From Acidobacteriota bacterium (lineage in GTDB: Bacteria > Acidobacteriota > Terriglobia > Bryobacterales > Bryobacteraceae), in the NCBI GenBank assembly GCA_025352795.1, contig JANXSF010000050.1, positions 1-64,000 on the forward strand: 64,000 nt of DNA, written 5' to 3'. Both the position numbers and the translations under genes were made by a program. The notes under the pieces are model-generated. The model saw nothing but the letters and a program-made list of their open reading frames with translations. It was not told where the DNA came from and made no database searches. Below are positions 44,797-47,872 of this stretch, piece by piece; within the stretch, counting starts at the first letter, position 1, and each line of letters opens with the position of its first letter.

Positions 44797-44885
44797 TGCG
44801 ATGAATTGACTATTGTAACAGTCGGTAAGTCTGAGCCTGAATCCAGTTATCAGCGGACTGCAGTTTTAGAATCTACTGTGAGCTG

Positions 44886-45068
44886 TTACTTCGCCGGTCT
44901 ATAAAATGGATTTGGAATGGCATTTTGCCAAAACTTTTCTGAGAGCTCAGGGAAATCCGAAAAGTCGATTGTATCATCGGGCATTGCTGCCAGCGCCTGC
45001 AACTGCTGGCGCTGTGCTTCGGTTAGTTTGCAAGTTGACAAATTTCTTGTATGTCTTTTTAAGATCAT
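44886..45068 (-). CDS. Small orphan antitoxin-like protein (BrnA-like tail)
   Basis: 60 residues: a basic N-terminus, LTEAQRQQLQALAAMPDDTI, then SDFPELSEKFWQNAIPNPFY and PAK. The ending (DFPEL-x-FW-NA-x-NPFYRPxK) is typical of small antitoxins of the BrnA type and their relatives. No toxin gene is next to it on this strand, so it would be an orphan antitoxin. An ATG start at 45066-45068 fits. Only 21 bases separate its start from the dut stop, so it could be read from the dut transcript. Confidence 0.55.
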   Translation of the reverse strand: MILKRHTRNLSTCKLTEAQRQQLQALAAMPDDTIDFSDFPELSEKFWQNAIPNPFYRPAK

Positions 45069-45089
45069 CGAATTACATTGTAGCGTGGG

Positions 45090-45521
45090 TTACCGCCCGG
45101 AACTCCCAAATCCGCCAGCCCCGCGTTCGGACCCGGCCAAATCCCCTTCCAGCCACTCCACCGCTTCATACTTGGCGATGACCATTTGGGCAATGCGATC
45201 CCCCTTCTTCACGGTGTAACTCTGCTTCCCTAAATTCAGTAAAATCACCCGGATCTCCCCACGATACCCAGGGTCAATGGTCGCCGGGGAATTGGGTAGT
45301 GTGATGGCCTGCTTCAACGCCAAGCCACTACGCGGCCGCAATTGGCACTCGTAACCAGGAGGGATTTCAACGGACAATCCCGTGGGCACCAGCACCGGAA
45401 CATTGGGTTCCAGAACAACCTCTGCGACGGAACAAATATCCATGCCAGCGTCCTCCAAGGGACCATGTGCATATTGCGGAAGAACCGCATCTTCTGAAAC
45501 TCTTTTGATTCGGATTTGCAT
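45090..45521 (-). CDS. dut: dUTP diphosphatase (trimeric dUTPase)
   Basis: 143 residues with all five trimeric dUTPase motifs: DAGMDICS (1), PRSGLALK (2), SPATIDPGYRGEIRVIL (3), GDRIAQMV (4) and RGAGGFGSSGR (5). It hydrolyses dUTP to dUMP, preventing uracil incorporation and supplying the substrate for thymidylate synthase. The divergent neighbour is a ThyX-like protein, so both arms of dTMP synthesis lie together, separated by 37 bases. Confidence 0.97.
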   Translation of the reverse strand: MQIRIKRVSEDAVLPQYAHGPLEDAGMDICSVAEVVLEPNVPVLVPTGLSVEIPPGYECQLRPRSGLALKQAITLPNSPATIDPGYRGEIRVILLNLGKQSYTVKKGDRIAQMVIAKYEAVEWLEGDLAGSERGAGGFGSSGR

Positions 45522-45540
45522 GATGTGAGACGGTCTTAAG

Positions 45541-45552
45541 TTAACATGTTAA
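45541..45552. promoter_or_regulatory. Perfect palindrome between dut and the ThyX-like gene
   Basis: TTAACATGTTAA, within the sequence CTTAAGTTAACATGTTAAGTTA, which also contains the direct repeat TTAAGTTA. It lies in the 37-base divergent gap, six bases before the ATG of the ThyX-like gene. A possible operator for both genes; the regulator is not known. Confidence 0.45.
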
Positions 45553-45558
45553 GTTACC

Positions 45559-46989
45559 ATGCCACAGACTCCAGGGCGCATAGTCAGCGTCTCACCCATG
45601 CCTCCCGAAAAATGTGCGTACGCTTTGGCCCGCTACAGCCGATCCCCCGATTCCATCCATGAATCCATTGATTGGGTGCGCACCCACGATTCCTCAAAGT
45701 TCCTGGATAGTTTCTATTTTCAATACGGCCACGCATCCATTGCCGACCTGGGCCATTTGGTCATCTGCTTTGAAGGCGTCTCTGAACTGGCGGCCACTGA
45801 GGTAGAAGACGAACAATTGTGGGACGGCCAGGCGAAATCTTCGCGCTATCAGGATTTCGGTTCGGCTGGATTCATCACACCACCCGACCTTGACGATGCG
45901 CAAACCACCCTCTATCGATCCGCAGGCGCGGCTTTGCTGGAAGCATACAAACACGTCCACGAGCAATCGCTAGAGCACTTGAAGCAGAAGCTTCCTTGCC
46001 CTGCGGACATGAAGCCCGACGCCTATCTGCGCAACATCACTGCCCGAGCCTTCGATGTGGCGCGCTATTTTCTGTTCTGGGGCATTCCCACAAATGTCGG
46101 CCAAATCACCAGCATCCGCACCTTGGAACGGCAGATTCGGCGGATGAAAGCTTCAGAGTTCGCCGAAGTACGCGACTTGGGTGTGGAACTGGCCCAGGCC
46201 TGCGCATCGGAACCGGGTTGCTTGTGGGACAAGGATGGCAGCCGCGAAGCGCTGGCGCCGACCCTGGCGAAGTACGTCGATCCCGATGCGCACCTTATCG
46301 AATCGCAGAAGGCGTTGAGGCTATGGGCGTCGCAAAATCTACCCAAAGCGGCGGGTGTGGATCCTGGGGATGTGCATCTGTCGAAACCAACCAACACGCC
46401 AGCCGACATTGTGGCGACGCTGCTGTACCCCGTCACAAATCGGCCCTTTAGGGAACTCTATGAATGGGCATGCTCTGTTAGCGCAGCGGTGCGCGAGGAG
46501 GTGATTGACGCAGCATTGGCGTCGCGAACCCGTGAAGAACTGCTGCGTGGATTCCGTGGTGGACTTTACTGTTATGACATGGTGATGGATATTGGAGCTT
46601 ACCGCGATTTCCATCGTCATCGGCGTTGTCAGCAGTTTCGGCAAGCGTATGAAGGGAACCTGGGCTACGATACACCGGCAGTAATTGGGGAAGCGGGCCT
46701 GAGCGGTTACTACGGTGCGGCGATGGATTCTGCTTGGTTGGCAATGCGGGGACTGCCACAGCCAGCGGCTCAGTATCTGCTGACGTTTGCTGGCAAATCG
46801 CGATTCCTGTTCAAGATGGATTTTGCGGAAGCGGAGTATATTTCCCGGTTACGGAGTGGCGTGAAGGGTCATTTCAGTTATCGGAATATTGCCTGGCGGA
46901 TGAAGGAAGAGATGGAAAAAGTGGAGCCGGAATTGGGACGGCTGATTGAAGCTACTCCACCGTGGGTGGAGGATCCGCTGGTACGGTGA
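45559..46989 (+). CDS. ThyX-like flavin-dependent thymidylate synthase, two-domain form
   Basis: 476 residues, about twice a single ThyX chain, with two ThyX-like halves. In the first half the region that aligns with the ThyX motif is EGVSELAATEVEDEQLWDGQ AKSSRYQDF, where the RHR triad is not present, though the SRY part is. The second half contains GAYRDFHRHRRCQQFRQAYEG near residue 357, an intact RHR. ThyX uses FAD and methylenetetrahydrofolate to make dTMP from dUMP. dut is divergent next to it. Whether this long form is a true thymidylate synthase is uncertain. Confidence 0.82.
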   Translation: MPQTPGRIVSVSPMPPEKCAYALARYSRSPDSIHESIDWVRTHDSSKFLDSFYFQYGHASIADLGHLVICFEGVSELAATEVEDEQLWDGQAKSSRYQDFGSAGFITPPDLDDAQTTLYRSAGAALLEAYKHVHEQSLEHLKQKLPCPADMKPDAYLRNITARAFDVARYFLFWGIPTNVGQITSIRTLERQIRRMKASEFAEVRDLGVELAQACASEPGCLWDKDGSREALAPTLAKYVDPDAHLIESQKALRLWASQNLPKAAGVDPGDVHLSKPTNTPADIVATLLYPVTNRPFRELYEWACSVSAAVREEVIDAALASRTREELLRGFRGGLYCYDMVMDIGAYRDFHRHRRCQQFRQAYEGNLGYDTPAVIGEAGLSGYYGAAMDSAWLAMRGLPQPAAQYLLTFAGKSRFLFKMDFAEAEYISRLRSGVKGHFSYRNIAWRMKEEMEKVEPELGRLIEATPPWVEDPLVR

Positions 46990-47056
46990 TTACTGCGATA
47001 TTGAGGAGCAAGATTAAGGAATCTACGACGGCAAGGGTTTCAGTATTGGAGTTGCT

Positions 47057-47275
47057 TTACTCGTCGCCAGGAAGCAATACTTTGTCAGCAAGCCCTGCTT
47101 CTTCAACCATTTTCTCGATTCTCCGCAGTGACTCAATTCGCCCTTCTGCCCGAGCGCGTTGATCAAGAAGGAGAGAGACGGCCTCTTCCATAAGTTCGTC
47201 AGCAGTGCGATAGCTTCCCGTAGCGATTTGCTGTTCTACTTGCCGAGAAAGGTGATCTGACAAAGATATTTCCAT
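47057..47275 (-). CDS. ParD/CopG-type antitoxin-like protein
   Basis: 72 residues from ATG 47273-47275. SLSDHLSRQVEQQIATGSYR TADELMEEAVSLLLDQRARA is a ribbon-helix-helix DNA-binding region as in ParD. The tail RRIEKMVEEAGLADKVLLPGDE would contact a partner. The start codon touches the divergent PIN gene's start (CATATG). A longer frame could begin at 47305. No ParE gene follows on this strand, so its partner is either missing or the divergent PIN gene. Confidence 0.68.
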   Translation of the reverse strand: MEISLSDHLSRQVEQQIATGSYRTADELMEEAVSLLLDQRARAEGRIESLRRIEKMVEEAGLADKVLLPGDE

Positions 47276-47872
47276 ATGCGCCCTAAACAATATTCTACCG
47301 TTCATTTGCCCGATGCGTTTGCTGCGAATACATTTGTGATTTTGGATGCATGTGTTTTAGTCAATCATCGACTTTGCGACGTTTTGCTACGGTTTGCCGA
47401 ACCTCCTGAGATTTTTAAACCGAAATGGTCAAAGGAGATCATTGACGAGACGGTGCGCGCTTTAGAGGAAAAATTGAATTGGCCCACTCATTTGACCGCC
47501 TCGTTGCAAAGAGAATTAATATTCAATTTTTCAGAGGCGTGGGTCCGTAATTATGAACCGCTTATTCCCGATGTAGGCAATGACTTAAAAGACCGGCATG
47601 TGCTTGCCGCTGCCATCCGTTCCTGATCATCCGTCATTCTTACGTTCAATCTGAAGCACTTCCGACCGGAACATCTTGAGCCTTGGGGAATAGTCGCACT
47701 CCACCCGGATGTTTTTCTGCTTGAGCTTTATAGGAAAGAGCCCGCACTTATGCTCGATAAGCTCCAACTACAAGCGACGGAAACAAATCGCTCCATGCCG
47801 CAACTTCTTACAATCCTCAGCAAAACGGTACCGGTCTTCGCAAACGCTATTTCGATGAGTCAGGATACTTAA
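47276..47872 (+). pseudogene. PIN-domain gene interrupted by one in-frame TGA
   Basis: From ATG 47276 the frame encodes a PIN protein: FVILDACVLVNHRLCDVLLRF (first acidic residue), KWSKEIIDETVRALEEKL, PDVGNDLKDRHVLAAAIRS, then TGA (47624-47626, codon 117). In the same frame it goes on VILTFNLKHFRPEHLEPWGI and ALHPDVFLLELYRKEPALML to TAA 47870-47872, for a total of 198 codons. The reading frame is otherwise intact, so a single substitution separates it from a normal PIN protein of about 198 residues. Confidence 0.78.

Follow-up and report, generated by a model that had tools for sequence, protein, structure and literature searches.

The stretch of DNA analysed here (the window) comprises 64,000 nucleotides, positions 1 to 64,000 of the forward strand of contig JANXSF010000050.1 (assembly GCA_025352795.1). 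The genome belongs to the Acidobacteriota, near Bryobacterales, and the closest named relatives are metagenome assemblies of Acidobacteria and Bryobacterales (best identity 81%). Two genes lie head-to-head at the locus: dut, whose product yields dUMP, the substrate of ThyX, and a gene encoding a tandem ThyX-like protein. The features are as follows.

45090-45521, minus strand: dut, dUTP diphosphatase of 143 aa (Pfam dUTPase 5e-28; NCBIfam PRK00601 159.6 bits, cut-off 103)
45522-45558, no strand: divergent dut-thyX gap of 37 bp with the start signals of both genes (from the ORF coordinates)
45541-45552, no strand: palindrome TTAACATGTTAA, non-conserved, followed by six bases (45553-45558) and then the thyX ATG
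45559-46989, plus strand: tandem ThyX-like protein of 476 aa (ORF; Pfam Thy1 in two stretches)

The first-pass annotation had described the same geometry, with dut head-to-head, 37 bases between the two ATGs and the perfect palindrome six bases before the thyX ATG, and all of it was confirmed. A search of 44800-47300 for Rfam families found none. Downstream lie two small overlapping head-to-head ORFs, 47057-47305 (minus strand) and 47276-47626 (plus strand), which by eye resemble an antitoxin and a PIN-type protein; the plus-strand ORF has its stop at 47624-47626, although the frame seems to continue.

Two ThyX halves in one chain

When the 476-aa protein was compared with the Pfam Thy1 profile, it scored 79 bits over the whole protein (cut-off 24.8), in two stretches. 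For the NCBIfam thyX equivalog TIGR02170 the score was 27.8 bits, under the cut-off of 87.9. A sequence search of solved structures, made with the window protein or with a profile of 26 tandem proteins, gave no ThyX match, while fold comparison did match ThyX. The AlphaFold2 model used, for which 26 relatives were supplied, had a pLDDT of 84.4 and a pTM of 0.86; confidence was low for the active-site loops of the N-half (near aa 51-70 and 81-100, pLDDT 51-69). Foldseek gave rmsd values mostly of 12-14 Å, probably an effect of aligning single chains over the fused protein, and per-half alignment was used instead. Each half of the predicted structure aligned to a solved ThyX, and hence each has the ThyX fold. 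The two ThyX-like halves claimed earlier are thus found by both Pfam and structural alignment.

45571-46284, plus strand: N-terminal ThyX half, aa 5-242, with a proposed dUMP-side role (VIA-align to MtbThyX 2af6: Z 10.4, 165 residues aligned, 2.8 Å, model range 6-242)
46357-46971, plus strand: C-terminal ThyX half, aa 267-471, with a proposed FAD-binding (RHR) role (VIA-align to TmThyX 3g4c: Z 9.4, 149 residues aligned, 3.4 Å)

Sorting of the catalytic motif

The motif of canonical ThyX is a contiguous RHRx7SxRY, and RHR and SxRY occur together in the single-domain relatives used. In the window protein the motif is divided, RHR being present in the C-half only and SxRY in the N-half only. EDEQLW at aa 83-88 of the first half and HRHRR at aa 352-356 of the second are exactly what the first-pass annotation had read there.

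The sorting was counted in 87 tandem proteins, chosen by domain matches or homology and without motif selection. They came from the best 30 loci of the 56 matching genomes in the window's family, together with 57 of the 76 other genomes of the phylum with two matches; one genome (G097) was dropped, as it has a single ThyX with a probable intein. A first list of 131 tandem entries, based on a motif pattern, was kept out of these counts; the subtype tables rest on that motif-found list (non-redundant rows). The residues concerned are listed below in the numbering of the window protein, with the equivalents in Thermotoga maritima (Tm) and Mycobacterium tuberculosis (Mtb) ThyX.

45730-45738, plus strand: H58 to S60 (Tm H53 and T55; Mtb H69 and S71, mapped by alignment); His in 78/86 aligned tandem proteins, with Asp in the other 8/86, and Ser or Thr at the second position in 86/86
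45805-45849, plus strand: N-half motif EDEQLWDGQAKSSRY, aa 83-97, with RHR lost and S94, R96 and Y97 (Tm S88, R90 and Y91) retained; 86/86, 86/86 and 85/86 aligned rows
46063-46065, plus strand: R169 (Tm R147); 87/87
46117-46119, plus strand: R187 (Tm R165, Mtb R190); Arg in 53/87 overall and in 34/34 of the window's own subtype
46615-46623, plus strand: RHR, aa 353-355 (Tm R78, H79 and R80), no SxRY following; 87/87 for each residue
46852-46854, plus strand: R432 (Tm R174, Mtb R199); 87/87 C-halves, with Arg at or beside this column in many N-halves too

At positions 78-79 (Tm numbering) RH occurred in none of the 87 N-halves, one row being gapped there. Even the loose pattern [ST]xR[YF] was seen within 30 residues after the C-half RHR in a single protein (1/87; L142). 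One entry (L146) is truncated at the edge of its locus and so misses the N-half motif, and another (L139) has SRF in place of SRY. Four sequence subtypes, A to D, share the split; they were found by motif, and the count of 87, made without motif selection, agrees.

The three-monomer ThyX site reportedly goes back to Leduc (2004). Canonical ThyX is a homotetramer in which every active site is drawn from three subunits (PMC6514825). For the M. tuberculosis enzyme these are subunit A with R95-R97 (the RHR) and R199, subunit B with S71 and R190, and subunit C with the dUMP-binding S105 and R107, the Tyr lid Y108 and also R87 (PMC6514825); they are referred to below as roles A, B and C. The account of the site also draws on PMC11940539 and PMC3498832. 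The equivalent of Mtb R87 is Glu in the window protein, and this residue has no TmThyX counterpart by eye.

Not every residue of the site follows the division. In the window's subtype (34 of the 87 proteins) R187, the role-B Arg, is invariant in the N-halves and the same column holds Ala in 34/34 C-halves. In the other subtypes the role-B Arg (Tm R165) is found in both halves (subtype B), in the C-half only (D, with Gln in 7/8 N-halves) or in neither half (C). An alignment of the halves placed Arg at the R174 column also in N-halves (44/44 in subtype A, 11/16 in B, 3/24 in C and 7/8 in D); in the whole-protein alignment the N-half Arg of subtype A sits one residue off this column. Many rows have Thr or Ser at the C-half column that corresponds to Mtb S71. 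Clean sorting is therefore limited to RHR versus SxRY and R147, and outside the window's subtype role B is not sorted in the way that the composite-site model would require.

Since RHR and SxRY come from different subunits in solved ThyX, and are sorted to different halves here, a composite site is suggested. The C-half would act in role A and the N-half in role C, the N-half of the window's subtype holding the role-B Arg as well. Two chains would then form a pseudo-tetramer with two working composite sites instead of four; the two sites lost would be those needing the RHR of an N-half and the SxRY of a C-half. As in other ThyX, dUMP, here supplied by the divergent dut, would be converted to dTMP with FAD and folate. 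Judged from the sequences and the structural model, we favour, at a probability of roughly three in four, the reading that this protein is the thymidylate synthase of the cell, made of two fused ThyX copies with the catalytic motif divided between them and two composite sites. The fusion argues against four identical three-subunit sites.

The presence of RHR in the C-half only could lead one to take the C-half as the sole catalytic ThyX and the N-half as a degenerate pseudoenzyme of structural or regulatory use. Such a view, one good and one degenerate half, is suggested by the wording of the first-pass annotation; its first part stands for RHR, while its second overlooks the complementary SxRY of the first half. 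The C-half has no SxRY, the N-half keeps the Ser, Arg and Tyr almost without exception in the aligned proteins, and a dispensable half would hardly be expected to retain, in bacteria and phages alike, just those residues that the other half lacks. A pseudoenzyme N-half is thus highly improbable. The first half does not appear simply degenerate; the halves look divided in function, and the tandem form, which is easily taken as one good and one dead domain, is probably misread in that way.

The window protein resembles canonical ThyX (Thy1, PF02511; TmThyX, MtbThyX) in fold, in its main catalytic residues when the halves are combined, in its genomic role as sole synthase and in the link to dUMP supply. 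It differs in that the chain has two halves, RHRx7SxRY is divided and there are probably two rather than four sites per tetramer-like unit. A partly comparable case is the trypanosomatid deoxyhypusine synthase with its catalytically dead paralog (PMC3663545), where likewise an active enzyme reportedly arises from two impaired, complementary copies; there, the enzyme is unrelated and the copies are separate chains, whereas here they are fused. Papers on tandem or fused ThyX were not found in the openly licensed literature, nor by term searches within PMC9931769 and PMC5954106. ThyX is a drug target, and because three identical subunits share a site, the subunit roles are hard to separate by mutation. 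Evolution appears to have separated much of this by leaving RHR to one half and SxRY to its partner, so that both the model of a shared site and the question whether four sites are needed would become testable half by half.

Synthase content of genomes and spread of the tandem form

The first-pass annotation had proposed a search for a separate ThyX or ThyA. In the window's own genome (completeness 96.58%) profile matching found neither a second Thy1 match nor a ThyA (PF00303) match, and the tandem protein is the only thymidylate synthase candidate found there. Thymidine kinase is present in the genome, so salvage could cover for a weak enzyme.

Among 149 Acidobacteriota genomes, Thy1 was matched in 114 and ThyA at more than 300 bits in 29; none had both and six had neither. 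In ten further genomes among the 149 only weaker, partial ThyA matches (28 to 88 bits) were seen. The six with neither ThyX nor full ThyA are G037, G085, G113 and G122, all of family f28, and G048 and G090; the four f28 genomes gave only weak partial ThyA matches. Another dTMP route or assembly gaps could account for the six. Of the 61 genomes in the window's own family, 56 had the tandem protein, and it was not found in the other five. A ThyA match was obtained in six of the 61, five being weak and partial and one strong over a partial stretch. Three of the five weak ones are in genomes where the tandem protein was not found (G164, G172, G205), and the strong one is in a genome that has it (G196).

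Two Thy1 matches occurred in 77 of the 114 genomes with Thy1, at least two of which probably do not have the tandem form: in G045 each match is at the end of a different contig, and G097 has the probable intein. In the latter (L103; G097:C1:4375900-4381000) about 400 aa, including an HNH-like stretch, are inserted into a 692-aa frame of a single-domain ThyX. The insertion lies between KHRIA and SEFNEISGRY, and is a probable intein in the active-site motif (domains assigned by eye).

These data bear on whether the protein might be a ThyX relative with another substrate, that is, another uracil-nucleotide methylase, with dTMP coming from salvage or from a synthase that escaped recognition. The low thyX equivalog score (27.8 against 87.9 bits) and the thymidine kinase in the genome are compatible with this, and fold comparison showed that PolB, a UMP/dUMP methylase, also has the ThyX fold. 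Against it, ThyX and full ThyA never occurred together in the 149 genomes, dut is head-to-head with the gene in 62 of 86 loci, a dCMP deaminase gene adjoins it in phage Tunturi_5, and the conserved residues are the dUMP-binding ones. We consider a different substrate improbable, and a role in dTMP synthesis remains the preferred reading.

The tandem form was also found in Nitrospira assemblies and in one Yanofskybacteria assembly, where a second ThyX was not found. Sixteen phage records matched, six of them over at least 80% of the protein, and PHROG 36506, named 'thymidylate synthase' (491 positions), is a full-length relative. The tandem ThyX of four phages was compared with the window protein: Tunturi_5, MaMV-CH01, BONAISHI and My-WqHQDG (hosts Tunturiibacter, Microcystis, Vibrio and Microcoleus, respectively). 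They are 22-39% identical to it and show the same N/C split. H58, S60, S94, R96, R169, R353, H354, R355 and R432 are invariant in all five proteins, while Y97 is replaced by Phe in one phage protein and R187 is not retained in the phages. In Tunturi_5 the tandem thyX follows dCMP deaminase, which is another source of dUMP; dut is annotated in none of the four phage stretches. Several of these records from phages of Acidobacteriota, cyanobacteria and Vibrio (L193-L196) carry the protein only as 'hypothetical protein'.

In a tree of 58 halves there was one group of all the C-halves (97/84) and a second that united the N-halves of subtypes A, B and D (100/99); the N-halves of subtype C fell separately. 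Subtypes A and D grouped together among the N-halves and again among the C-halves, the pattern expected from a fusion that came first. A larger quick tree had a single N group, without support. A single fusion event is likely for subtypes A, B and D; long branches meet in the tree of 58 halves, and its deep joins are unsure.

The gap between dut and thyX

Of the 86 loci collected, besides the 62 head-to-head ones, 19 gave no match to a dut motif, two had dut elsewhere and three lacked the thyX N-terminus. After 12 repeated gaps had been dropped from the head-to-head set, 50 distinct gaps remained, the window included, with a median length of 23 bp. The sequence TATSATA recurred in 30 of the 50, whereas 1000 mononucleotide shuffles gave 0.13 on average and never more than 2. 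An earlier set of gaps gave 21 of 41, against 0.25 (maximum 2) for dinucleotide shuffles. TATSAT can be read as a -10 hexamer on both strands. With start codons set by rule, which made the assigned thyX start GTG or TTG in 14 of the 30 TATSATA gaps and gave two clearly wrong dut starts (CTC, TTA), both hexamers ended 5-11 nt from the assigned starts in 18 of these 30 gaps, and the distance to the assigned thyX start was 5-9 nt in 22. Shine-Dalgarno-like strings, which leaderless genes would be expected to lack, were seen on the thyX side of 6/50 gaps and on the dut side of 1/50.

The distance from a -10 element to the transcription start is usually about 7 bp, according to PMC12825309. Together with the position of the hexamers this would leave leaders of a few bases or none, and suggests that TATSATA is one bidirectional -10 element giving near-leaderless mRNAs. 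The same source describes bidirectional promoters with a shared symmetric -10 (Warman, Grainger and colleagues), likewise short pseudo-symmetric elements between divergent genes, whose divergent starts are most often 18 bp apart, with 10 and 23 also common. In contrast to those promoters, 18 of the relatives' 30 gaps here have both start codons only 5-11 nt away from the hexamers, and the window is without TATSATA. For leaderless genes PMC3160421 places a TAnnnT hexamer some 12 bp upstream of the start codon, and it reports 13.3% leaderless genes in three of three Acidobacteria. In 261 other ORFs of at least 250 aa from the same loci no TAnnnT peak was found near the first ATG; this count is crude, as first-ATG starts blur it, and it speaks weakly against a general leaderless habit. 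The expectation of the first-pass annotation that so short a divergent gap favours near-leaderless mRNAs agrees with this reading of the gaps.

In relatives the element extends to GYTATSATARC, a palindrome of 11 bp whose flanks are conserved. Each of three genomes (5.1 to 7.6 Mb) had 2 to 4 such sites, one of which was the dut-thyX gap, whereas the reversed pattern had 0 to 2. This rarity and the conserved flanks lend some weight to the alternative that the palindromes found in the gaps, TTAACATGTTAA for the window and GYTATSATARC for relatives, are operators of a regulator of dut and thyX and not core promoter. The other genomic sites are about as many as for the reversed control and no shared regulon is evident by eye, TATSAT reads as a -10 hexamer on both strands, and its distance of 5-11 nt to both starts in 18/30 gaps fits a leaderless -10 element as described in PMC3160421. 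Operators are thus doubtful, and a shared core promoter is preferred. One other site of the element, GCTATCATAGC, was seen at L189:1501-1511, with the hexamer 9 nt from the ATG of an ORF that by eye resembles homoserine dehydrogenase; this placement fits a core promoter better than a dut-thyX operator.

TATSATA is absent from the gaps of the window and of its same-genus relative (L003/L110). A scan of 45400-45700 found no sigma-70 promoter pair, and its single terminator-like match is inside dut. In place of TATSATA the window gap has TAACATGTTA. TTAACATGTTAA is readable as TAACAT, of the TAnnnT type, on both strands, and TAACATGTTA could be a symmetric element in the window, with 11 nt between it and the thyX ATG and 24 nt between it and that of dut. 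The same-genus relative has in common with the window only TGTTARRTTACC beside the thyX ATG, so that the perfect palindrome is probably incidental or recent. Of 20,000 shuffled versions of the gap, 178 contained some 12-bp perfect palindrome, and 12 palindromes of this kind are present in the window; with one mismatch allowed, TTAACATGTTAA itself occurs once in the window against 0.09 expected. The palindrome is only mildly above chance.

The perfect palindrome was also considered as a conserved operator and rejected, as neither the same-genus gap nor any of the remaining 18 among the 20 distinct non-TATSATA gaps contains it. The shared control site proposed by the first-pass annotation was accordingly not upheld, the element common to the relatives being TATSATA.

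In many relatives one symmetric -10 element would most likely start both genes, with leaders of a few bases. The dut-thyX gaps may then serve as a compact natural case of bidirectional, near-leaderless transcription of two linked pathway genes. At slightly better than even odds, the wider history would run as follows: tandem ThyX is ancient and widespread; a fusion was followed by strict division of the motif into an FAD/RHR half and a dUMP/SxRY half, by which the ancestral tetramer irreversibly lost half of its sites; the fused enzyme spread to Acidobacteriota, Nitrospira, a candidate-phyla bacterium and large phages; and the gene of Bryobacterales came to share a single symmetric promoter with dut, giving two near-leaderless mRNAs. 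A co-directional variant was noticed by eye at one locus (L033, upstream of 4001), where dut seems to be followed immediately by a thyX of the same orientation.
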